From: a virus
Length of the DNA stretch: 64,000 nt
IMG/VR virus record: IMGVR_UViG_3300030108_005626
Location: 1-64,000 of that record
Direction: 5' to 3' (one strand)
This document shows positions 13,042 to 47,100 of this stretch, piece by piece. A program made the position numbers and the translations under genes. The notes under the pieces were generated by a model. The model was not told the origin of the DNA and searched no databases. It worked only from the letters and a program-made list of their open reading frames with translations. Position 1 is the stretch's first letter, and each line of letters begins with the position of its first letter.

Positions 13042-13905
13042 ATGAACAGTGTAATTTTTGTTGCCGATTTTTTCAAAAAAGACTTACTTGGCGGTGGCGA
13101 ATCTAATGATAATGTCTTAATTAATCATTTATTATCTAACGGTTATAAAGTAGATTGTAAAAGATGCACAGAGATTACCTCAAGAGATTTTGGTAAAAAT
13201 AAACTTTTTATAATAAGTAATTTTATATCTCTAACCGAAGAGAATAAGCAAAATTTAAAAAATGAAAATTACATTATTTATGAACATGACCATAAATATG
13301 TAAAAACTCGCGATCCAAGTAAATACAAAAATTTTTTAGCAACAGAAAAAAACATAGTTAATAGTTCTTTTTACCACAACGCATATGCCGTTGTAGTGTT
13401 AAGCAAAATATGTAAAGAAGTAATAGAAAAAAATCTTAATATAAAAAATGTTTATAATATAGGTTGCAGTTTATGGAGCGAAGAAAAATTTAATTATTTA
13501 TCTACATTGACTTCTGCAAAAAAGAAAAATAAATTTGTTGTATTAAATTCTTCAAACCCAACAAAAAACACAAACGAAGCGATAAATTTTTGTAAAAAAA
13601 ATAACATTGATTTTGACTTACTTGATCCATGTGACGAGAGAAAACTTTTACAAGAATTATCTAAATATCAAGGTTTGGTTTTCTTACCTAGCGTCTTAGA
13701 GACATTTTCAAGAATATCTGCTGAAGCAAAAATGTTAAATTGTAAATTATTAACAAAACCAAAGTTGCTAGGATTTGCATCTGAAAAAGATATTTTCACA
13801 CTAAATGGAGAGAAGTTGATTGAGCAGTTAAAATTGAGAAATAAAAAAGCTTTGCAATTATTTTTAAAACTATTAAGCGACATGAAGGTAAATAACGATG
13901 AATAG
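13042..13905 (+). CDS. Putative glycosyltransferase, compact GT-B type
   Basis: The protein (287 aa) starts VIFVADFFKKDLLGGGESND, resembling the GGxE acceptor loop of GT4 enzymes. It later has FLPSVLETFSRISAEAKMLNC, an EX7E-like donor segment with S in place of the usual glycine. It is shorter than the two GT4 genes before it. The composition is more lysine- and asparagine-rich and more AT-rich than theirs. It overlaps the next gene by eight bases. Confidence 0.65.
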   Translation: MNSVIFVADFFKKDLLGGGESNDNVLINHLLSNGYKVDCKRCTEITSRDFGKNKLFIISNFISLTEENKQNLKNENYIIYEHDHKYVKTRDPSKYKNFLATEKNIVNSSFYHNAYAVVVLSKICKEVIEKNLNIKNVYNIGCSLWSEEKFNYLSTLTSAKKKNKFVVLNSSNPTKNTNEAINFCKKNNIDFDLLDPCDERKLLQELSKYQGLVFLPSVLETFSRISAEAKMLNCKLLTKPKLLGFASEKDIFTLNGEKLIEQLKLRNKKALQLFLKLLSDMKVNNDE

Positions 13906-14767
13906 TATGGCAATTGCCTCTGACCATAACGGAGTGCAACTTAAAGAAAAAGTTAAAAAATTTCTTAAAGAGCAAGGCATATTGGTAGTTGATTTAGGTC
14001 CATATGATCCAAATAACAAAGTTGATTATGTTGATTACGCAAACCAGTTAGGTAAGATTGTTTCAAATAATGATGTTGACAGTGGTATCTTGATTTGTGG
14101 AACAGGTGTCGGCATGAGCATTGCTGCAAATAGAAACAACAATGTTAGAGCGGCATTGGTACACAATCACTTTACTGCACCAAAATGTAGAGAACATAAT
14201 GATGCTAATGTTCTTTGTTTGGGTAGTTGGATAACTGATGAAACAGAAACGATAAAAATTGTTTCTACATGGATAGGCACTGATTTTGGACAAGGACGCC
14301 ATGTGAAGCGAGTAGAAAAGTTGGACACCAGCGCAAAAGTTAATAAAATAATCTTTACCAATGGAGTTTTTGACATATTACATTCGGGGCACATAGAATT
14401 ATTAAGATTTGCAAAAAGTTTGGGTGATAAATTAATAGTTGCAATTAATTCAGACAGTAGTGTAAAGAAAATAAAAGGCGAAAACAGACCGATAAACTGT
14501 GAAAAAGATAGAAAAAGTGTATTAGAATCAATAAGTTTTATTGATGAAGTTTTTGTTTTTGAAGAAAGCAATACAATAGAGATATTAGATAAAATTAAAC
14601 CGAATATCATTGTTAAAGGAGGCGAGTGGACAAAAGATCAGGTAAGGCAAAGAGATAAAATCCCAGATCAGATCGATATAAAAATATTTCCACTTGTAAA
14701 AAATTACTCAACTACTGAAACTATAAATAAAATAAAAGAAATAGAGTCATGGTTAAAAAAATATTAA
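13898..14767 (+). CDS. Fusion: RpiB-type sugar-phosphate isomerase plus HldE-type nucleotidyltransferase
   Basis: The protein (289 aa) has two domains. Residues 1 to about 140 are an RpiB/LacA-LacB isomerase: ASDHNG (7-12), ICGTGVGMSIAANR with the catalytic-type C67, LVHNHFTA, and REHNDANVLCLG. Residues 148-289 are an HldE C-terminal/RfaE2-type nucleotidyltransferase, with FTNGVFDILHSGH (HxGH at 162-165), INSDSSVKKIKG and VKGGEW. RpiB enzymes interconvert aldo- and keto-pentose or hexose phosphates; HldE2 joins AMP to heptose-1-phosphate. The fusion suggests that the isomerase product, after kinase steps, is nucleotide-activated by the same chain. The exact sugar is unknown. The start overlaps the preceding stop, and GAAGG lies nine bases upstream. 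Confidence 0.85.
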   Translation: MNSMAIASDHNGVQLKEKVKKFLKEQGILVVDLGPYDPNNKVDYVDYANQLGKIVSNNDVDSGILICGTGVGMSIAANRNNNVRAALVHNHFTAPKCREHNDANVLCLGSWITDETETIKIVSTWIGTDFGQGRHVKRVEKLDTSAKVNKIIFTNGVFDILHSGHIELLRFAKSLGDKLIVAINSDSSVKKIKGENRPINCEKDRKSVLESISFIDEVFVFEESNTIEILDKIKPNIIVKGGEWTKDQVRQRDKIPDQIDIKIFPLVKNYSTTETINKIKEIESWLKKY

Positions 14768-15519
14768 TAATTGGCGACACAATAATTGATGAGGATATTA
14801 ATTTAAAAGTTATTGGACTGTCCTTAGAATCTCCAACGTTTAAAACAAAGACATCAAGTAAAAAAATTAATTTTGGAGGCGCTGCTAATGTAGCGCGATA
14901 CGCTAGTAAATTTGGACTAGATGTTGATTTTTTAACTTGCATGAGTGTTGATAGTGAGAAGCACTTTAAAAATAAATATGATATTAATTTAATCAATATT
15001 GACAATAGTGTAGAAAATAGAAAAACCAGATTTTACATCGAGCATGGAGATTCAAAATACAAACACTTGCAGATAAATGAGACTAACTCAAAAAGTGTAT
15101 ACACAAACCTTCAAGAAAAAGGTTTACAAAAATATGATTTGATTGCTTTCTCTGATTACAGATGCGGATTAATTTCAAAACACATAATAGAAAAAGTAAA
15201 GAATAGTGGTAAAAAGACTTTCGGCGCATCACAAGTTTCAGGAAAAAAATCAAATTTAAATAACTATGAAAAATTAGATTATATTGTGTGTAATGAAAGT
15301 GAATCAGACACAGTAACCCGCAGACAAAACGTTCTAATCACCAAAGGCGATCAAGGGTGTGAAATGAACGGTACCCTATATCCAGCATATCCAGTAAAGA
15401 ATGTAGAAACAATTATTGGCGCTGGCGATTGTTTTTATGCTGCATTTTTAGCATACGAATGTCCATCAAAATCTAATGAACTTGCATCAAGGTACGTAAG
15501 TGGTGATTTGTTTTGTTGA
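14749..15519 (+). CDS. PfkB-family sugar kinase, HldE N-terminal-like
   Basis: The protein (256 aa) begins LIIGDTIIDEDI and has LSLESPTFKTK and GGAANVARYASKFG (43-56), the pattern of the HldE/RfaE kinase domain. The catalytic-base motif GAGDCFYAAF is at 224-233. It is about 50 residues shorter than typical HldE kinase domains and ends soon after GAGD, although the active-site motifs are intact. It probably phosphorylates C1 of a heptose- or pentose-phosphate for the nucleotidyltransferase encoded immediately upstream. The 19-base overlap with that gene supports tight coupling. A second such kinase is at 17919. Confidence 0.82.
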   Translation: MVKKILIIGDTIIDEDINLKVIGLSLESPTFKTKTSSKKINFGGAANVARYASKFGLDVDFLTCMSVDSEKHFKNKYDINLINIDNSVENRKTRFYIEHGDSKYKHLQINETNSKSVYTNLQEKGLQKYDLIAFSDYRCGLISKHIIEKVKNSGKKTFGASQVSGKKSNLNNYEKLDYIVCNESESDTVTRRQNVLITKGDQGCEMNGTLYPAYPVKNVETIIGAGDCFYAAFLAYECPSKSNELASRYVSGDLFC

Positions 15520-16187
15520 TTAATGAATTAATACAATGTAACCAATCTTTGCAAAAAGAAAACTTGGTAATCTATACATGGGGTAATGTTAGCTGCCGTG
15601 AGGGTAAATATATTCTTATAAAACCCTCTGGCGTTAAGTTTGATGATCTGTCAAAAGAAAATATTTCAAAAATTGATATATCCTCTGAAGATTTGATATC
15701 CGGATATAAACCATCTGTTGATACTCCTACACACATCCATTTATATAAAAACTTTAGAAACATCAACGCTGTAGTGCATACTCATTCAAAGTATGCTACA
15801 ATATTCGCACAAGCAAAAAAACCAATACCGTGTTTAGGTACAACACATGCAGATTATTTCTATGGAGATATTCCTCTAGTCGATGATTTATCTTACGATG
15901 AGATTGAAAACAACTATGAGCAAAACACTGGAAAAAAGATAGTTCAATACTTTAAAAAAAATTCAATTGATCCGTTGAACATGGGCGCAGCATTGTGTCC
16001 ATCTCATGGAGTTTTTACATGGGGAAAAGATTTAAGTTCTGCTTTAAAAAATGCTATAGTATTAGAATATATAGCAGAAGTTGCCTACAAAACTTTAGTT
16101 TTAAACCCAGAACCTAATTTCAATAATGAATTATTAGATAAACATTTTTTGAGGAAGCACGGAAAAAAAAGTTATTATGGACAATGA
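15513..16187 (+). CDS. araD: L-ribulose-5-phosphate 4-epimerase family (class II aldolase fold)
   Basis: The protein (224 aa) aligns by eye along its whole length with AraD/UlaF. It has TWGNVSCR (22-29), the phosphate-site LIKPSGV, SVDTPTH (D70), VVHTHSKYA with metal ligands H89 and H91, TTHADYFYGDIP, PSHG with H165, and the family-typical ending KHGKKSYYGQ. AraD interconverts L-ribulose-5-phosphate and D-xylulose-5-phosphate, linking L-sugars to the pentose phosphate pathway. The only start consistent with the domain is TTG at 15513 or 15516, overlapping the kinase stop. It sits between the kinase and a cupin, suggesting that it feeds or trims the activated-sugar route. Confidence 0.88.
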   Translation: MLINELIQCNQSLQKENLVIYTWGNVSCREGKYILIKPSGVKFDDLSKENISKIDISSEDLISGYKPSVDTPTHIHLYKNFRNINAVVHTHSKYATIFAQAKKPIPCLGTTHADYFYGDIPLVDDLSYDEIENNYEQNTGKKIVQYFKKNSIDPLNMGAALCPSHGVFTWGKDLSSALKNAIVLEYIAEVAYKTLVLNPEPNFNNELLDKHFLRKHGKKSYYGQ

Positions 16188-16590
16188 AAATATAAAATAT
16201 GGACGTCAATCTCTCCCACCAATAGATAGCGTGGTAAAAAGCGTTGAAAAATATTGGGGAGATATGAAAACTCTCTTTGAAAATGATCAATATACCGTAA
16301 AAAGAATATTTATGAAAAAAAATACTCAAAGCAGTATGGAGTATCATGTCAAGAAGAAAGAATCATATTATATTGAAAAGGGTAAACTAAAGATTGGAAC
16401 TAGGATAGGTAGAGCAAAAAATACATCTTTGATATTAAATCAAGGAGATGTATTTCACATACCAGTTGGTTTTATGCATATGAGAATAGCGTTAGAGGAT
16501 ACGGTAATTATAGAATTTTCCACACTAGATGATGACGCTGATTCTCACATTGTAGAAGATGGAAAAACTTATATTCACAAGGAGGACTAA
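16177..16590 (+). CDS. Cupin, mannose-6-phosphate-isomerase-like
   Basis: The protein (137 aa) is a single cupin domain with the KYWGDMKTLFE-type entry strand seen in type II phosphomannose isomerase and ManC C-terminal domains. The second motif, GDVFHIPVGFMHM, is complete. The first motif has EYHVKKKESYYIEKG, with one His instead of HxH. It could be a sugar-phosphate isomerase or a nucleotide-sugar epimerase. A second cupin gene (18708) closes the neighbouring module in the same relative place. It overlaps the AraD gene by 11 bases. Confidence 0.75.
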   Translation: MDNENIKYGRQSLPPIDSVVKSVEKYWGDMKTLFENDQYTVKRIFMKKNTQSSMEYHVKKKESYYIEKGKLKIGTRIGRAKNTSLILNQGDVFHIPVGFMHMRIALEDTVIIEFSTLDDDADSHIVEDGKTYIHKED

Positions 16591-17259
16591 ATGAAACTTT
16601 TTTTAGACACTGCTAATTTATCTCAAATACAAGATGCTATGGATAAAGGGGTAATTCAAGGAGTCACCACCAATCCATCACTTTTGGCAAAGGAACCAAA
16701 AACTGATTTTTACAAACATATCAAGAAAATAGTTGATTTGTGCAAAAATTATAATAATGGTGTGCCTTTAAGTGTTGAAGTTTTTTCCATGAATCCTGAC
16801 GAAATGATTAATCAAGCAAAAGAAATAACAAAAGAACTTGACTATGATAAACTAAACATAAAAGTTCCAGTGGGTTTTGAAGAACTAAGAGTGATAAAAG
16901 AACTGTCTCAACAGAATATAAAAGTTAATTGTACTTGCTGCTTCACTGCTACTCAAATGCAACTAGCCGCTCTGGCAGGCGCCAGATACGTTTCTCTTTT
17001 CTATAACAGACTATATGATGCTAGTGGAGATCCGCTAAAAACTCTAAAAAGAGTAAGAACATTTATTGATAACAATAATTTAAATTGTGAAATCATTGCT
17101 GGAAGTATTAGAAATGGTTATGATTTAGAGGATGCATGGGATAGCGGAGCACACATAGTTACCGCTGGGTATGGAGTAGTAAAAAAGTCTACTCAGCATC
17201 CAAAAACAGATGAATCTGTAGATGGATTTTTAAAAGATTTTAAAGATTGGATAAATTAA
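16591..17259 (+). CDS. talC: Transaldolase/fructose-6-phosphate aldolase family (TalC type)
   Basis: The protein (222 aa) has the small transaldolase pattern: FLDTANL at 4-10, GVTTNPSLLAKE (24-35), Schiff-base lysine K91 in NIKVPV, CTCCFTATQMQLAALAGARYVSLFYNRL, and IAGSIRN. TalC-type transaldolases are well-known auxiliary metabolic genes in cyanophages, where they push carbon through the pentose phosphate pathway. Here the gene lies inside a sugar-activation cluster, so production of sedoheptulose-7-phosphate or other precursors for that cluster is a reasonable inference. A strong AAGGAGG lies six bases before the ATG. The stop overlaps the next start (TAATG). Confidence 0.9.
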   Translation: MKLFLDTANLSQIQDAMDKGVIQGVTTNPSLLAKEPKTDFYKHIKKIVDLCKNYNNGVPLSVEVFSMNPDEMINQAKEITKELDYDKLNIKVPVGFEELRVIKELSQQNIKVNCTCCFTATQMQLAALAGARYVSLFYNRLYDASGDPLKTLKRVRTFIDNNNLNCEIIAGSIRNGYDLEDAWDSGAHIVTAGYGVVKKSTQHPKTDESVDGFLKDFKDWIN

Positions 17260-17588
17260 TGGTTTACGTGTTTGACATAGATGGCACAATTTGCACTAAT
17301 ACATATGGCGATTATGAAAAATCTAAACCGTTTTTAACTAGGATAGAGTATGTAAATAAATTGTATGATGAAGGAAACACAATAATATTCAATACTGCAA
17401 GAGGCATGGGAAGAAATAAAAATAATGCAGGTTTAGCGCATTTAGACTTTTATGATTTTACAAAAAACCAACTTGACGCATGGGGTGTTAAGTACCATCA
17501 ATTATTTTTAGGAAAACCAGCAGGGGATATTTATGTTGATGATAAAGGTTCTTTTGACAAAGATTTCTTTAAAGTTGTCGAGAGTTGA
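17259..17588 (+). CDS. Small HAD-superfamily phosphatase, capsule-cluster type
   Basis: The protein (109 aa) starts VYVFDIDGTIC, the HAD nucleophile motif with the Asp pair. It has FNTARG as the motif-II threonine region and GKPAGDIYVDDKGSF carrying the motif-III lysine and motif-IV aspartates. This compact form, without a cap domain, is common in bacterial capsule and O-antigen clusters. By position it could remove a phosphate from a sugar bisphosphate, as GmhB does in ADP-heptose synthesis, but it is not a GmhB orthologue by length. ATG 17259 overlaps the transaldolase stop. Confidence 0.8.
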   Translation: MVYVFDIDGTICTNTYGDYEKSKPFLTRIEYVNKLYDEGNTIIFNTARGMGRNKNNAGLAHLDFYDFTKNQLDAWGVKYHQLFLGKPAGDIYVDDKGSFDKDFFKVVES

Positions 17589-17971
17589 AAGTGTTCACGA
17601 ACGGATGTTTCGATATAATACATCGAGGACACTTAGAATTATTAAAATATTGTAAAACTTTAGGTTATGTTGTTGTCGGATTAAACAGTGATAACAGCGT
17701 TAAAAGGTTAAAGGGACAAGAAAGACCAATAAATAATCAATCCGATAGAAAACATTTACTTGAGTGTTTAAAGTTCGTAGATGAAGTTATCATTTTCGAT
17801 GAAGATACTCCTATAAATTTGATTAATCAGATCCAACCGGATGTTGTGGTAAAAGGTGGAGATTATAAAGCAGAGGAAGTTATCGGATCAAACGTATGTG
17901 AGGTAAAAATATTTAATTATGTCAATGGATATTCAACAACACAAACAATTGAACGTATTAATAATAGGTGA
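17585..17971 (+). CDS. HldE/RfaE2-type sugar nucleotidyltransferase, stand-alone
   Basis: The protein (128 aa) is a single HldE C-terminal-like domain: VFTNGCFDIIHRGH (HxGH at 13-16), GLNSDNSVKRLKG, RPINNQSDRK and VVKGGDY. It is a clear relative of the C-terminal half of the protein encoded at 13898, but without the RpiB domain. It starts at TTG inside the HAD gene's stop; a GTG two codons later is an alternative. The likely reaction joins a nucleotide (AMP or CMP) to a sugar-1-phosphate. It is followed by its own kinase gene, so the kinase/transferase pair occurs twice in 4 kb. Confidence 0.85.
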   Translation: MKVFTNGCFDIIHRGHLELLKYCKTLGYVVVGLNSDNSVKRLKGQERPINNQSDRKHLLECLKFVDEVIIFDEDTPINLINQIQPDVVVKGGDYKAEEVIGSNVCEVKIFNYVNGYSTTQTIERINNR

Positions 17972-18704
17972 TAGTTGTATTGATATCTATCACTATGGCA
18001 CTTGTGATAGATTAAGTCTAGAAGCACCAGTGCCAGTTCTAAAGCATATAGAAACCAAAGAAAAATCTGGGATGGCAATAAATGTAAAAGATAACTTTTC
18101 TTCTTTAGGTGTTGATACGTCTATAATAACTAATAATAAACAAGTAAAAAAAGAAAGGTTTGTCGATATAAAAAGTAAAAATCATTTATTGAGATTTGAT
18201 TCTGGTGAGATAAAAAAATTACCGTCGATAGAAAAAGAACAAATATTAGATTATGAAATTGATTTTTTTGATGCTGTTGTTTTAGTAGACTATGATAAAG
18301 GTAGTTTGTCTGATGAAATATGCAGATTTATTTCAAAAAAGTGCTTTGAATTAAAAGTGCCATTGTTTGTCGACAGTAAAAAGACAGATCTGTCTTGTTT
18401 TGAAAATTCATTTATAAAAATTAATGACTTAGAATACTCAAAAGCATTTAAATTTCCAAAAAACTATGATTTAATAGTTACTATGGGTTCTCGTGGTGCG
18501 CTTTTTCAAGAAGTGATATATGAAACTGAACCTATTTCTGTTCACGATGTATGTGGAGCTGGTGATACCTTTTTTGCAGGTCTTGTTTACAAGTATCTTT
18601 TGACAAATGATATTGTTGAGTCTATAAAATTTGCAAACAAATGTGCTAGAATAACTGTAACAAAAGAAGGAACTTACGCTCCAAAACTATCTGAGATCGA
18701 GTGA
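17919..18704 (+). CDS. PfkB-family sugar kinase, HldE N-terminal-like (second copy)
   Basis: The protein (261 aa from ATG 17919) has LIIGDSCIDIYHYG, LSLEAPVPVLK (33-42) close to the HldE signature, and CGAGDTFFAGL with GAGD at 213-216. The usual GGAANVA is replaced by SGMAINVKDNF, which may alter substrate recognition. The ATG start overlaps the upstream nucleotidyltransferase gene by 53 bases. A TTG at 17949, just before the first strand, is an alternative, and neither has a clear ribosome site. Split kinase and transferase chains correspond to the two domains of bifunctional HldE. Confidence 0.82.
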   Translation: MSMDIQQHKQLNVLIIGDSCIDIYHYGTCDRLSLEAPVPVLKHIETKEKSGMAINVKDNFSSLGVDTSIITNNKQVKKERFVDIKSKNHLLRFDSGEIKKLPSIEKEQILDYEIDFFDAVVLVDYDKGSLSDEICRFISKKCFELKVPLFVDSKKTDLSCFENSFIKINDLEYSKAFKFPKNYDLIVTMGSRGALFQEVIYETEPISVHDVCGAGDTFFAGLVYKYLLTNDIVESIKFANKCARITVTKEGTYAPKLSEIE

Positions 18705-18707
18705 TAT

Positions 18708-19070
18708 ATGACATTAAAAAGTTTAAACATAAAATTTGTACCCAAAGGATGGGGATATGAAAGATGGATTGTAAACAAAGAGGAATATTGTGGAAAACTA
18801 CTATTTTTTGTTAAAGATAAAAGATGCTCTTGGCATTATCACAAACTAAAAGATGAAGTTTTTTATATACAATCTGGTAAAGTTTTGGTAAAATATTCAG
18901 ATGATGATGACATAACTAAAGCAAGTGAAGTTGTTTTATCGAAAGGAGACAACTTTCATGTATACAGAGGGTTGAGACACCAGATGATTGCCATAGAAGA
19001 TACTGAATTATTTGAATTTTCAACTCAACATTTTGATGAAGATAGTTATAGGGTTATAAAAGGAGATTAA
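18708..19070 (+). CDS. Cupin, sugar-isomerase/epimerase-like (second copy)
   Basis: The protein (120 aa) has complete cupin motifs: WHYHKLKDEVFYIQSG, with the HxH and Glu metal ligands, and GDNFHVYRGLRHQM. The opening KGWGYERWIVNKEEYCGKLL resembles cupins found beside HldE-type genes. It ends the second nucleotidyltransferase-kinase-cupin module, as the cupin at 16177 follows the first. The likely role is isomerising or epimerising a sugar phosphate or nucleotide sugar; the substrate is unknown. Confidence 0.75.
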   Translation: MTLKSLNIKFVPKGWGYERWIVNKEEYCGKLLFFVKDKRCSWHYHKLKDEVFYIQSGKVLVKYSDDDDITKASEVVLSKGDNFHVYRGLRHQMIAIEDTELFEFSTQHFDEDSYRVIKGD

Positions 19071-19934
19071 ATGTCTTTTATATACGAAAACAGAAAACCA
19101 CCGTATAAAAAAGTTTATTTTGGAATCAATGGTCAGTTTGGTGATATTATAATGCAGATACCTGCCTTAGATCAACTGATAAAAGATAATCCAGAAACAA
19201 AAATTGTATTTGGAATGTCAAAAAAATATGAACAAATATTACCTCTTTTTAAAGATTACCACCCTAATATAGTAGATTATAAAATATGGGAAGGGTATGA
19301 TGATTGGCCAACACAATCTGATTTGGAGTATATAAAGTCACAAAATTTTGATGCCATGTTCCCTTGCCAGATTCCGAAACACGATGATCCGTTTTTTGCA
19401 AAACATCGGCACATTAACACGGAAACTGCTTTAATGTTGGGAATAGAAACCGATATAGTTGATATAAAGTTACCATACCCAAAAGATATTATAAAGGAAC
19501 CAAAAACTGTTGCTCTACATCTATTTTCTAGTAAGTGGCCAGGTGGTATTCGATCAATTGATATTGCGAAACAAAACTTTATTGTAAATTATCTAAGGAA
19601 AAGAGGATATAAAATTTATCAATTATCAGGTCCAGGTCAACCGCATATAAAAAATACAACTTTTTTTAGAGGAACATATTTTGAAAGTTGCATGAAAATG
19701 CTAACGACTGACTTCTTAGTGACGTGTGATTCTGGAATGCCGTGGATTGCATCTGCCTATAGTCACCATATGATAGGATTATACTCTTGGGGTTATAATC
19801 CTGAAATTGGAACAACTAAAAATTGGCAACCTGTAAATAAAAATGCAATTTTTGTAGAAAACTTTAGCGCAAACGATATTCAAATTAGTAAAATATTTAA
19901 ACTTATAGATAAAAAAATAAGAGAGACGTCATGA
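19071..19934 (+). CDS. GT9-like (heptosyltransferase-type) glycosyltransferase
   Basis: The protein (287 aa) has NGQFGDIIMQIPALDQLI, the N-terminal signature of the ADP-heptose:LPS heptosyltransferase family GT9, and LVTCDSGMPWIASAYSHHMIGLYS, the matching donor-side signature. It is shorter than WaaC/WaaF (about 320-350 aa). Placed directly after two HldE-like modules, it is the natural candidate to transfer the sugar they activate. AAAGGAGAT precedes the ATG, and it overlaps the next gene as ATGA. Confidence 0.78.
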   Translation: MSFIYENRKPPYKKVYFGINGQFGDIIMQIPALDQLIKDNPETKIVFGMSKKYEQILPLFKDYHPNIVDYKIWEGYDDWPTQSDLEYIKSQNFDAMFPCQIPKHDDPFFAKHRHINTETALMLGIETDIVDIKLPYPKDIIKEPKTVALHLFSSKWPGGIRSIDIAKQNFIVNYLRKRGYKIYQLSGPGQPHIKNTTFFRGTYFESCMKMLTTDFLVTCDSGMPWIASAYSHHMIGLYSWGYNPEIGTTKNWQPVNKNAIFVENFSANDIQISKIFKLIDKKIRETS

Positions 19935-20794
19935 TAGTATCCTACATTACACCACCTTCAGCAAATGCTGAACCATTTTATCCTATGATGGAAAAAAAGG
20001 GAGTTAAAGTTTATTTTAATTCCATTCATCCTGATTGTGACTTTATCATTAGTACAATGCCCACTGGTTATTTTCATTTATTAAAAATGTTTCATGAAAC
20101 GTTCCCGGAAAAACCTATAATTATATACTTATGGGATATGTATAAAACAATTCACAAACCTCCATTTAAATATGATTGGCAAGCGCACATTGATATACTG
20201 CATAAGGCAAAAGAAATTTGGTGTCCATCAAATGAAGTTATAAAAAGAGTTGCAGAAGAAGGAGTGGATAACTCTAAGTGTAGATTAATTAAGACTTGGG
20301 CAAGATTCTTTGATTATGATGGTGAAATAGTTGACAAAAGATATATATTACAACCATTGCGAGCATACACTAATGATAAAAACTATGGTTGGTTGAAGAA
20401 AGCTGCTGAAGAATTAAATATACCAGTGTTTGAATCAAAAAATAGATTGTCAGAAGAGGAATTTCAAAGGGCAATAGCGGAATGTAGTTTTATGTGTTGT
20501 GAGTATCACGAAACATCAACTGGTGGTTTAACATTGATAGAGGGATATAATCTAGGTAAAGTTTCGGTTGTGAGTAATTCACCATATGAGGGAGTCAGAG
20601 ATTATTTAGGTGATAAAGCAATATACTTTAATGACGACAGTTATGAAGATTTTAAATCTGTGATAAAGGAAACGTGGGAAAACACTCCGGTGCTAGATTT
20701 GCAGGAATGTAGAGAGTTTTGTAGAAATCATCCGAGTTTAGATGACATGGTTGACGCTATGGTTAAAAGATTATATGCTTTGAGTGAAGAATGA
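19931..20794 (+). CDS. Putative glycosyltransferase, GT-B type
   Basis: The protein (287 aa) has IIYLWDMYKTIHKPPFKYDW, WCPSNEVIKRVAEEG, a typical GT-B inter-domain segment, and STGGLTLIEGYNLGKVSVVSNSPYEGV, a GT4-like donor region with a single clear Glu. It is coupled by ATGA overlaps on both sides. The acceptor and donor are unknown. Confidence 0.7.
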   Translation: MIVSYITPPSANAEPFYPMMEKKGVKVYFNSIHPDCDFIISTMPTGYFHLLKMFHETFPEKPIIIYLWDMYKTIHKPPFKYDWQAHIDILHKAKEIWCPSNEVIKRVAEEGVDNSKCRLIKTWARFFDYDGEIVDKRYILQPLRAYTNDKNYGWLKKAAEELNIPVFESKNRLSEEEFQRAIAECSFMCCEYHETSTGGLTLIEGYNLGKVSVVSNSPYEGVRDYLGDKAIYFNDDSYEDFKSVIKETWENTPVLDLQECREFCRNHPSLDDMVDAMVKRLYALSEE

Positions 20795-21390
20795 CAAAAG
20801 TTCATATTGCAACCGCAAGACCTGTGGGTTTAAAATGTATTGAATGGGCAAAAGATAACTGCCCTTCTGGTTTTGAACTAACGGAAAATATTAATGAATG
20901 TGATATAATTATATCCGTATTATATGATAAAATATTTAAACCAGGTATTGTTAATAATAAAAAATGTTACAACATACATCCAGGCATATTACCTGATTAC
21001 AAAGGAGTTGGGATATGTAGTTGGGTGATATTAAATGAAGAAGACTACATGGGTGCAACTTTACATGTGATAAATGAAGGAGTAGACACTGGAAACATAA
21101 TACACATTGAAAAATTTTTAGTAAAAGATCAAGATACTGCGTATTGTTTGTTTAATAAAGTTGAAAAATTGATTTATAATATGTTTAAAGAGTGGTTTGT
21201 GGACTTGTTAAATGAAAATTTTATTAGCACACCTCAAACTAATACAAATAACGTAACGTATAAAAGAAAAGACTTACAGTCAGCAATGGATCTTACTAAG
21301 TTTGTAAAAGCATTTTATTTTCCCGGTAAACCCGCTGCTTATTATTTTGACAGAAACGGTGAAAAAAAACATATAGATTTTGATTATTAA
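20791..21390 (+). CDS. Sugar N-formyltransferase-like protein
   Basis: The protein (199 aa) carries the formyltransferase catalytic triad: N61 and H63 in CYNIHPGILPDYKG, and D99 in NEGVDTGNI. These residues use N10-formyl-tetrahydrofolate in methionyl-tRNA, GAR and sugar formyltransferases. The short length and nearby aminotransferase genes favour a nucleotide-amino-sugar substrate (as in ArnA N-terminal, VioF or QdtF) rather than tRNA. The C-terminus (YYFDRNGEKKHIDFDY) resembles that of sugar formyltransferases. The amino sugar may come from the aminotransferases at 22366 or 27340. Confidence 0.78.
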   Translation: MTKVHIATARPVGLKCIEWAKDNCPSGFELTENINECDIIISVLYDKIFKPGIVNNKKCYNIHPGILPDYKGVGICSWVILNEEDYMGATLHVINEGVDTGNIIHIEKFLVKDQDTAYCLFNKVEKLIYNMFKEWFVDLLNENFISTPQTNTNNVTYKRKDLQSAMDLTKFVKAFYFPGKPAAYYFDRNGEKKHIDFDY

Positions 21391-21402
21391 AGAGGTTAAA
21401 GA

Positions 21403-22356
21403 ATGAGAGATATTAGGAATTGTAATGTGTGCGTAATCGGCGGCGCCGGTTTTTTAGGATCGCACTTGGTTGATCACTTGATAAAAGATAGAAATTGTCA
21501 AGTGCTTGTTCTGGATAATTTGATAACAGGACTAAAAAAATATGTTAATAAAAGCGCAAAGTTTTTGTGGTTTGATATACGCGATGACGAAAACCAGTTA
21601 GCAAAAATTTTTAGTGAGCATGACATAGACTATGTATTCAATTACGCTGCAGAACCTTATATTCCGGAATGTTTTGAAAGACCAATGCACTTTTTTGATA
21701 TTAATGCAACATCTGTCCTGAGAGTTTTAAATGCCTGTCAAAAATCAAAAATAAAAGGATTACTACAAGTATCATCAGCAGAAATATATGGAGATATGAA
21801 AGGAAAGATAACAGAAAATGATCCGGTAATACCTCATTCAACTTATGGGGTTTCAAAAGTTGCTGCAGATGGATTGGTGCAAGTACGCTGGCGAGAAGGA
21901 AACGTACCAGCGATTGCCATGCGACAGTTTAATTGTGTTGGCGAAAGAGAAACCCATCCTTATGTGATACCTGAAATAATTTCTCAGTTATCAGAAAATA
22001 CCACAATCAAACTAGGTAATAATTCATTTAGAGATTTTCAATATGCAGGTGATGCTGTTCGAATGGCGGTAGAACTTTTAGAAAAAGGTGACTTTGGTGA
22101 AGTATATAACATGGGTAGTGAGTCTGGAATTAAAATTTATGATCTAGCGCACATGATTGGTAGATTAATGGGTCATGAAAGTATAGATATTGTCGTTGAC
22201 GAGAAAAGAGTTCGCCCATGGGAAATATGGCATCTACAATCAGACAATACTAAACTTTATAGTGCTATAGGAAGGCGCACGCCAACTAGTCTGGAAGAGT
22301 CTTTAAGAAGAACTATTGATTATTACTATGAAAATAATAAAAACTGGGATTGGTAG
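21403..22356 (+). CDS. NAD-dependent nucleotide-sugar epimerase/dehydratase (extended SDR)
   Basis: The protein (317 aa) has the NAD-binding GGAGFLGS at 13-20, DNLITG, NYAAEPY, the catalytic SSAEIYG and YGVSK (Tyr-x-x-x-Lys), and late SDR features such as YNMGSESGI. It could be a 4-epimerase, a decarboxylase of UronA/UXS type or a 4,6-dehydratase; the sequence does not decide between them. AGAGG lies nine bases before the ATG. In the heptose hypothesis it would occupy the HldD-like position. Confidence 0.85.
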   Translation: MRDIRNCNVCVIGGAGFLGSHLVDHLIKDRNCQVLVLDNLITGLKKYVNKSAKFLWFDIRDDENQLAKIFSEHDIDYVFNYAAEPYIPECFERPMHFFDINATSVLRVLNACQKSKIKGLLQVSSAEIYGDMKGKITENDPVIPHSTYGVSKVAADGLVQVRWREGNVPAIAMRQFNCVGERETHPYVIPEIISQLSENTTIKLGNNSFRDFQYAGDAVRMAVELLEKGDFGEVYNMGSESGIKIYDLAHMIGRLMGHESIDIVVDEKRVRPWEIWHLQSDNTKLYSAIGRRTPTSLEESLRRTIDYYYENNKNWDW

Positions 22357-22365
22357 GTAAGTGTT

Positions 22366-22953
22366 ATGAGTTTTGAACCAATTAGAATATTTGAAAATTC
22401 AATTGCTGATTTTTTTGGCGCACCATACGCAGTAGCTACCGACTGTTGCACACATGCTTTGGAACTTTGTTTAAGATATAAAGAATCAAAAAAAATATCT
22501 GTGCCCAAACATACCTATATTTCCGTTCCTATGCTGTCTATAAAATTAAACATAGACCTAGAATGGACAGAAGATGATTGGTTAGATTATTATTATGTAA
22601 CTGATGAAATCATTGATGCTGCTGTCTTATGGAAACCCGATAGTTATATTCCTAACAAATTTATGTGCGTTAGTTTTCAATTTAAAAAACATCTTAGTCT
22701 AGGAAGAGGGGGCGCTATTCTACTGGACAATAAGGATGATGCATTAGAATTGAAAAAAATGTCATACGATGGTAGAACTCCAGATAGTCCATGGGCAACG
22801 CAAAACATAAGCACTATGGGTTATCACTATTATATGACACCAGAAACTGCACAATTAGGTTTAGATAAATTACCTCTTGCGATAAAAAATAAACCAAAAC
22901 AATGGACAATAAATGACTGGCCAGATCTAACAAAAATGGAGATATTTAAATGA
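22366..22953 (+). CDS. Mini DegT/DnrJ/EryC1-like aminotransferase
   Basis: The protein (195 aa) is about half the length of sugar aminotransferases. It keeps the recognisable core: ATDCCTHALELCLR (the PLP phosphate-binding region), VPKHTYISVP, DAAVLW (the Asp-containing segment) and SFQFKKHLSLGRGGAI, in which K108 is the expected PLP lysine. The C-terminal small domain is missing. It overlaps its downstream neighbour as ATGA, so truncation by accident is unlikely; it may be a deliberately compact enzyme or a binding protein. The substrate would be a keto-sugar from one of the flanking SDR enzymes. Confidence 0.72.
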   Translation: MSFEPIRIFENSIADFFGAPYAVATDCCTHALELCLRYKESKKISVPKHTYISVPMLSIKLNIDLEWTEDDWLDYYYVTDEIIDAAVLWKPDSYIPNKFMCVSFQFKKHLSLGRGGAILLDNKDDALELKKMSYDGRTPDSPWATQNISTMGYHYYMTPETAQLGLDKLPLAIKNKPKQWTINDWPDLTKMEIFK

Positions 22954-23930
22954 GATATTTAGTTACAGGTGCTACTGGGTTTGCTGGACCCCATATGATA
23001 AACAAAATTCTTGAAGACCCAAGCAATGAAGTTGTAGCTATGGTTAGAAATTTAGAAACTTGTAGAGGAATTGTTAACATTGTTAAAGATAACATTGATA
23101 AAATTGAATTCGTCTATGGAGATCTAGAAGACTTAGATTCAATAACAAAAATATTTACAGAAGATGTTTTTGATGGTGTGTTTCACTTGGGTGCATTTGC
23201 CCATCCTCCTTCATCTTTTGAAACTCCACTTTTGGCATCTCAAACTAATCTTTTAGGTACTGCTAGAATTTGTGATGAAATTATTGAGAACATGCCTCTT
23301 TGTGTTCTTATGCATTGCTCAACTCCAGAAGTATATGGTATATGCCCAGCAAATTCAAAGATAGATGAATCAACACCATATAATCCCAATAATCCATATG
23401 GTGTATCAAAAGCGGCATCAGATATGTATGTTCTAGAAAGAACAAACAATACAGACCTAAGAGCGTTTTTGACTAGAGCATTTTCTCATACCGGTCCACG
23501 AAGGGGTAGTAATTTTTCAATATCTTCGGATGCTATCCAAATTGCTAAGATAATTAAGGGACAACAAGAACCAGTAATAAAAATAGGCAATATGACATCT
23601 CAAAGAATTGTTGCCGATGTGCGAGATGTTGTTGATGCTTATTATCAATTAATGGTTAAATTCCAACAAGATGAAATAAAGTGTGGAGAGATATTTCACA
23701 TAGCAGGAGATGATTTACATCCTATGCAGCACTATTTAGATTTAATGCTACAAATGCATAATCTTGAAGATACAAAATTAGAAATTGAACCAAAGTATTT
23801 TAGGAAAGTAGATATTCCAATACAAATTCCAGATGATTCAAAAGTTAGAAATTTTTTAAACTGGAAACCATCAATACCTATTGAAAAAACTTTAAGAGAT
23901 CTTGTAGACTATTGGTTGGAGGAAGTGTAA
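22950..23930 (+). CDS. GDP-mannose-4,6-dehydratase-like SDR
   Basis: The protein (326 aa) has GATGFAGPH (7-15), HLGAFAHPP, HCSTPEVYG, NPYGVSKAASDMY with the Tyr/Lys pair, and TRAFSHTGPRRGSNF, features of the GMD/RMD branch of extended SDRs. GMD makes GDP-4-keto-6-deoxymannose; relatives act on GDP- or CDP-heptoses in Campylobacter and Yersinia. With two cupins and HldE-like modules upstream, a 6-deoxy-sugar product is plausible. It is coupled by ATGA to the mini-aminotransferase gene. Confidence 0.83.
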   Translation: MRYLVTGATGFAGPHMINKILEDPSNEVVAMVRNLETCRGIVNIVKDNIDKIEFVYGDLEDLDSITKIFTEDVFDGVFHLGAFAHPPSSFETPLLASQTNLLGTARICDEIIENMPLCVLMHCSTPEVYGICPANSKIDESTPYNPNNPYGVSKAASDMYVLERTNNTDLRAFLTRAFSHTGPRRGSNFSISSDAIQIAKIIKGQQEPVIKIGNMTSQRIVADVRDVVDAYYQLMVKFQQDEIKCGEIFHIAGDDLHPMQHYLDLMLQMHNLEDTKLEIEPKYFRKVDIPIQIPDDSKVRNFLNWKPSIPIEKTLRDLVDYWLEEV

Positions 23931-25001
23931 ATGGGAATTAAAGATGTTGATGGACATAAACTCATGTATTATCCAGAGGAGGTGGCAACGTGGAAAAAAA
24001 CCGGCGCTGCGACCCCACTGCATGTAGAGATTGGACCCACGAATAGGTGTCAACATCATTGTAGTTTTTGCAGTGTTGACTGGATTACTCATGGCGTTGT
24101 AAGAATAGATAAGGACGTTTTAGTTAGAGCTATTGAGTCTATGGGCGATGTTGGAGTAAGATCCATATATTTTGCAGGAGAGGGAGAACCTTTGCTGCAC
24201 CCAGGAATGGAAGACTTTGTTCAAACAGCGCACAAAAGAGGAATAAAAACATCAATGGCAACAAATGGAGGACTTTTAAATCAAAGAAGACTTCCAGGTC
24301 TTTTGCCTTATTTTTCTTGGATTAGGTTCAGTATTGATGCTGCAACTCCAGAAACACATCAAAGTATACATAAATCTAAAGATTTTAATAGAATTATCAA
24401 AAATATAAGACTAGCGTGTGAATATAAAAAAGAACATAAATTACCAGTTGAACTAGGAGTTCAGTTTATTGTATTGGAAGAGAATTTAGAAGAAATGGAA
24501 ATGTTTGCTGATCTGATGAAAGATGTCGGTGTTGATAATATTCAATATAAACCGCACCACAATCACCCTAAAAGCGCATCCAATCCCACTTTGTATAGTT
24601 TAACTGATGAAGCTTTGCGATTAAGACTAATCAATCGTACAACAGATGATTTTCAAGTTATGGTACGCAGTAGAAATCTTGAAGAGATGCCACTTATTCC
24701 TGGTCAAGATCACAACTATTGTTACAAGAAATGTCATGCATATAACTTTCTAACGTTAATCGACGCCAAGGGTGGTTGTTATGGTTGCAACATCTTTTAT
24801 GATCAAAAAGATTATAGTTTTGGAAACATTTATGAACAATCTTTTGAAGAGATACATACAAGTGGTCAAGTTCAAGAAATCATAGAAAAGGTTGCAAAAT
24901 TGAACCATTCACAATGCGGGAATTATAAGTGTAGACCTCATGTATTAAATGAGTATTTAAATAGAATTGCAAATCCCGAACTCAATGATGAATTTATTTA
25001 G
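23931..25001 (+). CDS. Radical SAM protein with C-terminal cysteine-rich (SPASM-like) domain
   Basis: The protein (356 aa) has NRCQHHCSFC, with C40, C44 and C47 forming the CxxxCxxC radical SAM cluster. FAGEGEPLLHP (a GGE-like SAM-binding motif) and SIDAATPETHQ follow. Cysteines further on (CYKKCHAYNF, GGCYGC, SQCGNYKC) suggest one auxiliary Fe-S cluster, as in SPASM proteins. Such enzymes occur in bacterial O-antigen and amino-sugar clusters; the reaction here is unknown. GGAGG lies eight bases before the ATG. Confidence 0.85.
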   Translation: MGIKDVDGHKLMYYPEEVATWKKTGAATPLHVEIGPTNRCQHHCSFCSVDWITHGVVRIDKDVLVRAIESMGDVGVRSIYFAGEGEPLLHPGMEDFVQTAHKRGIKTSMATNGGLLNQRRLPGLLPYFSWIRFSIDAATPETHQSIHKSKDFNRIIKNIRLACEYKKEHKLPVELGVQFIVLEENLEEMEMFADLMKDVGVDNIQYKPHHNHPKSASNPTLYSLTDEALRLRLINRTTDDFQVMVRSRNLEEMPLIPGQDHNYCYKKCHAYNFLTLIDAKGGCYGCNIFYDQKDYSFGNIYEQSFEEIHTSGQVQEIIEKVAKLNHSQCGNYKCRPHVLNEYLNRIANPELNDEFI

Positions 25002-44178: not shown

Positions 44179-47100
44179 ATGTCCTTAAAAGATTTATTTA
44201 AAGAACAAAAATATAAATTCTTATCAAATGAAACTGCTAATTCTTTAACAGGTAGCGGCATTGAGTCTGCTGAGTATGTTTCTACTTTTTTAGAAGACGA
44301 AAATCGTTTTATACCATTAGTAGATTATTCAAAACCAGAAAACTTCGCCAGATTTGGTTCTGCAGAAAAATACTATTATGATTCTATAACAAGAGTTTAC
44401 AACACTTATCCTTATGATGGTTCCAAAAAAGAAAAAATACTTTGGGAACTTTCCTCTTCAGGAATAGATCTTTACCTTTTTGAAAATGGATATCCAAGAA
44501 CAACCGGATATGCAGTATTTTCAACAGCTAGTCTATCAGCAACAGATACTTCAACAAATTATTCAGTTTGGGGTTCGTATGGTGCTGCTGGAACTGGAAC
44601 TTATGAATACGTATCCTTTAACGGAGGTCCCCACGCAGGCATTGGTTCTAAGATATATTTAGATCCGGAGTCTGGAGAGGCAAAATATAGAGAAAAAGCA
44701 AACGTATTTGATACATCTAAAAATAGAGAATGCAACTTAAAAATAGGTGGAGTTGATGGCAACACCGTAGAGTTTTGGTTAAAAAAGGAAGATTTTAACC
44801 CTGCAGCAACCCAAACCGAAGTTGTATTTGATATCTTTACCACATCCTCGATATCATCTAGCGCAGGTTATGGTCGTTTAACAATTGAAATGTCTGGTCA
44901 CGGCGCAACGACTAATACGCGCTCTCCCTTTTATGTAACGTACATGTCAGGAACATCTGGTATATCTAAGCAGAATATTGGTTCTTCGCTAACCACTTCA
45001 TCAATCGCTGATGATCAATGGCATCATTATTCTTTTAGATTTAAAAATGTTGCTGATGACGTATCAGTGGATCTTTTTGTTGATGGAATATTTAACCACA
45101 ATGTAACAACCGGTACTCCGATAAATTATGTTAGTGGCACTTTGGTTGGTAATATTGGCGCACTTGCGACACATCCATCTGGTAATATTTCCGGAGCACC
45201 ACGCGCAGAAAAAGGTTGGGGAAAATTATCAGGTTCACTGGATGAGTTTAGATTTTGGAAAGTTTGGAGAAATTCACAACAAGTTCAAACTCGATGGTTT
45301 GATCAAGTCGGCGGCGGAACGAACACGGAAGATGCAAACACCACTTTAGGTTTATACTATAAATTTAACGAAGGTATAACTTTAACTTCATCAATAGATT
45401 CTACAGTGTTGGATTACTCCGGAAGACTGAGTAATGGATCTTGGACGGGATATTCTTCTGTTCACTCTAGAAAGACGGGATCTGCTATAAACGAATCTCA
45501 ATCTCTACTTACTAACTTTTCTGGTAGTGAGTTTAAAGATCCGATAATATATTCATTTCACCCTGATGTTGTTACATATCTAGATACTAAAAGAAAGGAG
45601 GGTCGCTCATACGATTACAAAAACCCATCCTCCATATATTACACAATGCCGGGATGGATTTTAGATGCCCACGACACTGCAGATTTAAGTAACGATGGAA
45701 TAATAAATAATTCACTCTGGAATTTAACTCAGATTATGAGTAGTTATTTTGACAATGCCGCTAATATGATGAAATCAATGCCATCTTTGGCGCAAAATGA
45801 TTACTTTAGTGGGTCACAAAAACCAGTTCCATTTATGGGAAGAATTCTAGAATCTAAAGGATTTGTTGCTCCAGAGTTATTCAACGCGATTGAATCTTTA
45901 GAATATTTTGAAGACAGAGATAAAAACACATTATACACAGAAAAAGTATCTGATATTAAAAATATTATTTATAAAAATATCTATAACAATTTAACCTTTA
46001 TAAACAAATCAAAAGGAACTGAAAAATCATTTAGAAATTTAATACGTTGTTTTGGAATTGATGATAACATTTATAAGTTAAACATTTACTCTAACAATGT
46101 TGATTTTGTTTTAGAAAATAATTTTAGATCTGTGGCACAGCGTCATAGAATGGTTAACTTTAATGTTACTGGTAATATTGATGCAACTGTATTTCAATAT
46201 TCAAGTAGTTTAAATTCGAACTCAACAACTTTTATTTCAGCAAGTAAGAATTTTACACCTGAGACATCACAAGAGTCTAGTATGCCATTTAGTGTAGAAT
46301 CAAACATTGTTTTTCCAAATAGAGTAAGGCAAGGTGAGTACCACACGATTAGATATGACGATCCGAAAGTAAGAAATAATTATCCACTAATACTAACTTC
46401 TAGTTTGTTTGGTATGCATACTGCGGTAGACACAACCCCTGCAAAAACAACATGGAACACGAATGATTATGCAAACTTTATTGTTTTTGCTGAAAAACCT
46501 TCGACTTTTTCTAGTGATGCTAAATTTATTCTTACTGGAACGCTGGGCGGGTTTATACCGGAATTAAGTTCAACAGTCTATACGGATGTATATAAAGATA
46601 CAAATTGGAGTTTCTTAGTTTCATTATATCCGGAGGCATATCCAAATGCAAATGAAGTATCAGGAACACTAACCAACACAAACGCAGTTGGTACTAATAT
46701 ATTACTAAGTTTCACTGGTCAGGCACAAAACGATAGATTTAAAATTAATGTGCCTGTGGCAGCAGGGGGAACTGGAAATGACATCACCATTAGATTACTT
46801 GAAGCTGCCACGCCATCTGCCGGTACAGCAAATGAGATACAAGTTAAAGGTTCGGCACCACTAGCAGTTAACTCAACTGCCACTAGAATTGTAGCAGCAA
46901 TTAATGGAAGCAGCGATACATCAATTATTCAGTACGGCGCCGGTTCTGGTGATGCCACAAACGGTATTGCAGGAATTACTGCTGCTATTGGTTCCACACC
47001 AGATGATATAACGATTACAGCAGATATCACCGGTTCTATAGGAAATTCTATTACATTAACTGACATTGAAGGAACTTTTGTTGAAGACGGTGCAACTGGT

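Follow-up and report, generated by a model that had tools for sequence, protein, structure and literature searches.

A protein that joins an RpiB-type isomerase to an HldC-type nucleotidyltransferase is, on balance, probably a bifunctional enzyme that acts at both the start and the end of a nucleotide-activated heptose pathway in a marine T4-like phage. Its gene lies in the window, by which we mean the whole stretch of 64,000 nucleotides analysed here (positions 1 to 64,000 of the IMG/VR virus record IMGVR_UViG_3300030108_005626, which has 67,303 bases). Since PhoH-like (identified by eye), baseplate-wedge and endolysin genes are present in the record, its source is consistent with a marine T4-like phage. 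The substrates and products named below for the cassette enzymes are all ones that we infer for them.

Domain architecture of the fusion protein

The fusion gene, its two domains and a codon of its isomerase pocket are located as follows:

13898..14767, + strand: RpiB-HldC fusion (ATG at 13898, stop codon ending at 14767, 289 aa, single intact frame)
about 13898-14332, + strand: RpiB domain of the fusion (residues 1-145)
about 14333-14764, + strand: nucleotidyltransferase domain of the fusion (residues 146-289)
14228..14230, + strand: codon of Trp111 in the RpiB domain (the position of Arg113 in Mycobacterium tuberculosis RpiB and Arg110 in Escherichia coli RpiB)

Overlaps of a few bases join the gene to both of its neighbours (13905, 14749) in the manner of a tight operon. 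Pfam searches assigned the first half of the protein to LacAB_rpiB (170.6 bits, E 2e-50, residues 5-142) and the second half to CTP_transf_like (68.6 bits, residues 153-259). The NCBIfam model TIGR01120 (rpiB) was matched with 154.9 bits, which passes its cut-off of 138.65, and TIGR02199 (rfaE_dom_II) was matched over residues 151-281 with 153.3 bits, under its cut-off of 181.5. The catalytic Cys67 is retained, as is the HxGH nucleotidyltransferase motif in the form HSGH (His162-Ser-Gly-His165). The AlphaFold2 model consists of two well-folded domains (mean pLDDT 87, pTM 0.55) with a weak hinge between them at residues 131-150; using Foldseek, the first domain was matched to the RpiB structures 3he8 (TMt 0.87) and 2vvr, and the second had Burkholderia HldC (5xf2) as its best match.

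The intact frame, the Pfam and NCBIfam matches and the structural comparisons agree on an RpiB isomerase fused to an HldE-type transferase, as the preliminary description had proposed, and the TIGR02199 and 5xf2 matches bear out its view that the isomerase is joined to the transferase (HldC) half rather than to the kinase half, with the key motifs in place. The first domain has the fold and every catalytic residue of RpiB, with about 40-46% identity to Cys-type bacterial RpiBs of known structure, and differs from it by a Trp at the position of M. tuberculosis Arg113 and by the C-terminal HldC domain. With HldC and the C-terminal domain of HldE the second domain shares the fold and the HxGH motif, 5xf2 being its best structural match, but it is fused to an isomerase and its score of 153 bits stays under the equivalog cut-off.

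Distribution and origin of the fusion

Further fusion loci were collected by alignment-based scans of IMG/VR and GTDB genomes, and fused and unfused RpiBs were separated by BLAST-based sorting. The first IMG/VR scan returned three relatives of 58-62% identity; the full set comprises 59 loci (the window, 48 other IMG/VR loci and 10 cellular bins) with 46 distinct proteins. The cellular bins are labelled Acidobacteria, Longimicrobiales, Proteobacteria, Doudnabacteria, Taylorbacteria, Armatimonadetes, a Prochlorococcus single cell and 'archaeon'. The 58 loci beyond that of the window, the yield of a search for other fusions that the preliminary description had proposed, carry the same fusion and fall in one clade (bootstrap 95 / SH-aLRT 94), which rules out a chance joining or misassembly. 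Cellular copies are interleaved with viral ones in the tree, and the unfused RpiB of locus L133 is the sister of the fusion clade (99/92). Judged from the sequences, the fusion has a single origin and is old and conserved.

The possibility had also been raised that the fusion is common in cellular capsule clusters with a known product. Cellular copies do occur in surface-polysaccharide settings (by eye, flippase, polymerase and glycosyltransferase genes at L009 and capsule-type ABC export at L012), but they are rare, with the seed genome as the only carrier among 199 sampled genomes of the L009 phylum, 287 of the L013 phylum and 251 of the L008 family. Among 50,697 isolated phage records no full-length fusion was found. 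The copy of Prochlorococcus AG-347-M18 (L008 1-12858) is nested within the viral fusions with a support of 100/84; this position suggests that phages and a surface-glycan island of cyanobacteria have exchanged it.

Two sets of unfused relatives were identified. In virus G048 (loci L133 and L149) a single run holds the genes for AraD, RpiB, kinase, transaldolase and cupin, and the genes for HAD, for a free-standing HldC-like transferase and for another kinase are a few kilobases off. In the Acidobacteriota locus L148 (4781-6651) three adjacent separate genes encode an HldA-like kinase, an HldC-like transferase and an RpiB of the ordinary kind; this run lies close to DnaK-, GrpE- and HrcA-like genes. 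The unfused sets of G048 and L148 each support a functional link of RpiB to heptose-type activation that would predate the fusion. The prospect that the two domains are separate proteins with unlinked functions in relatives was not borne out, as the unfused Trp-signature RpiB of L133 lies in the same cassette. That the union is a chance one, in which RpiB would serve the nucleotide metabolism of the phage and the transferase would serve LPS synthesis, is extremely unlikely: both halves are common as separate proteins, but one old fusion persists in 59 loci (46 distinct proteins) of phages and several bacterial phyla, the unfused pair of L133 stays within one cluster and the HldA-HldC-RpiB run recurs unfused in L148.

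The isomerase pocket

Residue numbers refer to sequences of E. coli and M. tuberculosis RpiB, E. coli AraD and FsaA, which we take as rulers only. The catalytic residues of the RpiB domain are all kept (D9, H10, C67, T69, H100, N101, R134, H135, R138), and the D, H, C, T, H and N positions and the phosphate residues R133/H134/R137 (E. coli numbering) are invariant both in the fusions examined and in a 34-sequence alignment. At the position of M. tuberculosis Arg113 (E. coli Arg110) a Trp is found in 45 of 45 distinct fusions as against 1 of 81 separate RpiBs, the one being the unfused cassette copy of L133; the separate RpiBs came from scans seeded with fusion motifs and are not a random set, so that the contrast should be weighed accordingly.

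In M. tuberculosis RpiB, Arg113 partly covers the tunnel-shaped pocket and caps the pentose phosphate site (PMC3755991). LacAB galactose-6-phosphate isomerase takes a C6 phosphate, which goes together with the loss of the Arg113 contact to the phosphate, the contact in which it departs from RpiB (PMC3755991). The fusions resemble LacAB in the RpiB fold, in having no Arg113 at the phosphate site and, on the reading favoured here, in a sugar longer than C5 (PMC3755991), and differ from it in that LacAB is a two-subunit, catabolic hetero-oligomer with Arg39 in LacB and no transferase. Since the pentose-capping Arg is replaced by Trp in every fusion, the pocket appears to be unlike the one found in a ribose-5-phosphate isomerase, and this counts against a pentose phosphate as substrate. 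Trp111 may thus serve as a marker of this pathway, and it could reflect another non-pentose substrate rather than C7 in particular.

The most direct alternative would be an activated D-pentose made by standard RpiB chemistry (ribulose-5-P to ribose-5-P, ribose-1-P and NDP-ribose), for which the complete set of RpiB catalytic residues and the passed TIGR01120 cut-off would speak. We consider it very unlikely, given the Arg-to-Trp exchange at the phosphate site, the supply of ribose-5-P already provided by host RpiA/RpiB, and the AraD and transaldolase genes of the cassette, which would be pointless in such a route.

The six-gene cassette

In the window the fusion gene is followed, in this order, by the genes of five partners:

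14749..15519, + strand: PfkB/HldA-like sugar kinase, predicted C1 kinase (256 aa; GAGD motif conserved)
15513..16187, + strand: AraD-type ketose-phosphate 4-epimerase (224 aa; PRK08193 above cut-off)
16177..16590, + strand: cupin CUP1 (137 aa)
16591..17259, + strand: small transaldolase of the FSA/TalC type (222 aa; phrog_440 transaldolase)
17247..17588, + strand: small HAD phosphatase, EcbF/BcbF-like, predicted GmhB stand-in (113 aa)

Conservation was counted in those distinct viral fusion loci, 31 in number, that extend 3.8 kb or more downstream. The kinase, the cupin and the transaldolase occur in all 31, the HAD phosphatase in 29 and AraD in 28, and all five partners occur together in 26. 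Viral cassettes mostly keep one gene order; in cellular loci the parts are the same but their order is partly changed. The AraD gene is missing beside the cassettes of cellular L007, L009 and L014 and of viral L099, L101, L113 and L114, and for L099, L101 and L113 no copy was found anywhere else in the virus record; the AraD step is therefore optional.

The best family of the kinase is TIGR02198 (HldA), yet its score is 69.7 bits against a cut-off of 345. The AraD protein passes PRK08193 (283.8 against 257) and is below the cut-off of TIGR00760 (251.6 against 389.1). Its D76, D120, Y229, catalytic Arg and Zn-binding His residues are invariant in 39 of 39 copies, and E142 and H218 are present in 33 of 39; the active site is that of a pentulose-5-P epimerase in 33 of 39 copies, which counts against a heptose. 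CUP1 is among the best-conserved cassette proteins (59-89% identity in viral cassettes, the divergent L130-L132 excepted), and the sequence search found no solved relative for it.

An identity of the transaldolase as an FSA aldolase was rejected, since the FsaA residues Gln59 and Tyr131 are replaced and the nearest PDB entries are transaldolases. The Schiff-base Lys is conserved in 44 of 44 sequences, with Glu at the position of FsaA Gln59 in 43 of 44 and Phe at that of Tyr131 in 44 of 44, a combination which we take to be the transaldolase rather than the aldolase pattern. The protein is below the cut-off of TIGR00875 (fructose-6-phosphate aldolase; 173 against 246 bits), and its best PDB matches are the named transaldolases 3r8r and 1vpx (141.7 bits), compared with 87.6 bits for the best F6P aldolase in the PDB and about 60 for E. 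coli FSA. The small HAD protein scored 42.7 bits with TIGR01689, below the cut-off, and its HAD motifs are conserved in 37 sequences. The label 'phosphoheptose isomerase' (phrog_1238) attached to it was judged to be a naming error and discarded, as HAD motifs are present in the protein. P-TIM68 gp195, a small HAD protein of a phage LPS cluster, bears the same label in PHROGs and in the phage records, probably a misannotation that is spreading among small phage HADs.

An activated L-pentose would make use of these parts differently. AraD would convert D-xylulose-5-P to L-ribulose-5-P, RpiB would form an L-aldopentose-5-P, and kinase and HAD phosphatase would yield the 1-phosphate, from which the transferase would form NDP-L-arabinose or NDP-L-ribose for glycans or DNA modification. 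The fully conserved AraD active site of most copies fits this scheme, and phage DNA does carry pentose modifications, as arabinosyl-hmC in RB69 (PMC6024577) and as a pentose in Shewanella phage Thanatos (PMC12838424). Such a route is nonetheless unlikely, as it loses the capping Arg in every fusion RpiB, leaves the transaldolase of all 31 viral cassettes without a role, lacks AraD beside three cellular and several viral cassettes, has GT9 neighbours that fit a heptose, and has no base-modification gene seen in the cassette.

The second module and glycosyltransferase neighbours

Directly behind the fusion cassette lie a second kinase and HldC-like pair, a cupin and a GT9-like gene (17585-19934):

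17585..17971, + strand: second, stand-alone HldC-type nucleotidyltransferase (128 aa; 48% identical to the fused one)
17919..18704, + strand: second PfkB/HldA-like kinase, partner of the stand-alone transferase (261 aa)
18708..19070, + strand: second cupin CUP2 (120 aa)
19071..19934, + strand: GT9 (heptosyltransferase)-like protein, candidate user of the activated sugar (287 aa; identified by hhalign)

Given this position of the second module, two activated sugars of the heptose type may be made by the phage, or a single one along two routes. The module at 17585-19070 is of a kind known from cyanophages: like the rfaE-type modules of P-TIM68, S-SSM7 and Sf-CH8 it combines an HldC-like transferase and a PfkB kinase with a cupin and a small HAD in an LPS-type cluster, and those modules, unlike the window, hold neither RpiB nor the fusion.

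The GT9-like gene sits 1.5 kb behind the cassette, and its product was matched to the GT9 profile in a profile-profile comparison by hhalign (95.9%, E 5e-9); the window search gave it no Pfam family, and no relatives were recovered by phage tblastn or the IMG/VR scan. At L115 a GT9-like relative also follows the fusion cassette, with a single cupin of the CUP2 type intervening. GT9 heptosyltransferase genes assigned by Pfam adjoin the cassette in five of the 10 cellular loci (L007, L013, L014, L015, L016) and in viral L133, while only 13 of the 39 virus records, which are mostly fragments, gave a PF01075 hit, a point against the heptose reading. A transketolase gene lies near the cassette of L013.

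The GmhA family (SIS_2) was found in none of the 39 virus records, and TIGR00441 gave no GmhA match in five of the 10 cellular genomes. The cellular genomes L009, L011 and L014 have a GmhA-like gene as well as the cassette, so the cassette need not make the heptose of the GmhA route.

Three further regions of the window were recorded. The protein encoded at 22-1032 matches phrog_1211 (2-aminooxy adenylosuccinate synthetase, 243 bits), is of the PurZ type and might point to a modified adenine in the phage DNA. A run at 20791-24998 encodes a formyltransferase, a 195-aa DegT-type aminotransferase, two sugar epimerase/dehydratases and a radical SAM/SPASM protein, and suggests one more product, an N-formyl amino sugar or a glycan of an unusual kind. 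The structural region holds a 3116-aa open reading frame (44179-53529), which is probably a tail or adhesin protein.

Proposed pathway

Sedoheptulose-7-P is a transaldolase product and the start of ADP-heptose synthesis, which is treated as GmhA-dependent. In the pathway proposed here the transaldolase, as predicted from its residues, would form sedoheptulose-7-P from fructose-6-P and erythrose-4-P, after which the AraD-type enzyme could epimerise the ketose phosphate at C4 in an optional step. By carbohydrate logic, AraD acting on sedoheptulose-7-P would give manno-heptulose-7-P, and the corresponding aldoses would be D-glycero-D-galacto- or -talo-heptose. The RpiB domain would then convert the 2-ketose-7-P to the aldose-7-P, doing the job of GmhA with an unrelated fold, a role suggested by its altered pocket together with the absence of GmhA. 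The HldA-like kinase would phosphorylate C1 to the aldose-1,7-bisphosphate, the HAD phosphatase would remove the C7 phosphate to leave the aldose-1-P, and the HldC-type domain would transfer a nucleotide, probably AMP, to give the NDP-heptose. GT9-type glycosyltransferases would finally add the heptose to a surface glycan, probably host LPS, and so alter receptors during infection. Fusing the first dedicated step with the last activation step would fit co-regulation or clustering rather than direct channelling, since the intermediates must pass the kinase and the phosphatase in between.

The transaldolase residues, the Arg-to-Trp exchange, the GT9 neighbours and the missing GmhA in 39 virus records favour a heptose, or in any event a sugar of more than five carbons, over a pentose; the heptose reading also draws on the kinase and the transferase being closest to HldA (TIGR02198) and HldC (TIGR02199). 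Kinase, transferase and HAD phosphatase all score under the equivalog cut-offs of true heptose enzymes, which counts against a heptose. The preliminary description, whose interpretation is partly supported, had left pentose and heptose side by side: transaldolase residues and GT9 genes strengthen the heptose, the Trp in place of the capping Arg weakens the pentose, and what had been called an entry would be a whole pathway, the fusion being the head of a six-gene cassette.

Transaldolases can accept several aldose-P acceptors, so that transaldolase and AraD might instead deliver a ketose phosphate of another length, such as a 4-epimerised fructose-6-P in the style of LacAB and galactose-6-P, or an octulose-8-P, and an activated hexose or octose would result. 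RpiB relatives do handle C6 phosphates (LacAB, PMC3755991; AlsI, PMC3212906). This outcome is decidedly unlikely, however, since UDP- or GDP-sugars are a simpler way to activated hexoses and the HldA/HldC-like partners and GT9 genes are a better fit to a heptose.

The heptose pathway proposed above follows the logic of ADP-heptose synthesis (GmhA, HldE or HldA plus HldC, GmhB) from isomerase and C1 kinase to HAD phosphatase and nucleotidyltransferase, and it shares with it an HldA-like kinase and HldC-like transferase and GT9 enzymes nearby. It differs in its isomerase, which has the RpiB fold where GmhA has the SIS fold and forms one protein with the transferase, in its EcbF/BcbF-like phosphatase, and in the addition of a transaldolase, an AraD-type epimerase and a cupin.

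Implications for phage and host glycans

The most likely use of the sugar, by analogy, is an alteration of host LPS or capsule, as has been argued for the LPS genes of pelagimyophages in the passages of PMC7029224 that deal with them. Those phages are likewise T4-like and marine and carry rfaE with many glycosyltransferases in a hypervariable region of the tail module; the same passages describe rfaE only, and neither an RpiB fusion nor a six-gene cassette (PMC7029224). Pentose glycosylation of phage DNA, as in RB69, would be the main alternative use (PMC6024577). In the literature we found no description of an RpiB-HldE fusion, of a role of RpiB in heptose synthesis or of a transaldolase-containing heptose cassette in phages; an ADP-heptose-like activation pathway with a different isomerase, an arrangement not found described, is what is new here.

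In its broadest form, which we put forward tentatively as a possibility, the cassette would be a second independent route to activated heptoses, in which an RpiB fold replaces GmhA, AraD epimerises sedoheptulose-7-P at C4 to reach a stereoisomer beyond GmhA (of the D-glycero-D-galacto type, for example), and marine phages are the main means of spread. Surveys of viral 'auxiliary metabolic genes' should not annotate such genes as ribose-5-phosphate isomerase. If the product is an activated heptose, a core glycan pathway would have undergone non-orthologous replacement in a widespread phage cassette, Trp111 and the fusion would together be a sequence marker for finding the pathway, and marine phages would bring a complete sugar-activation pathway with them and remodel the surfaces of their hosts.
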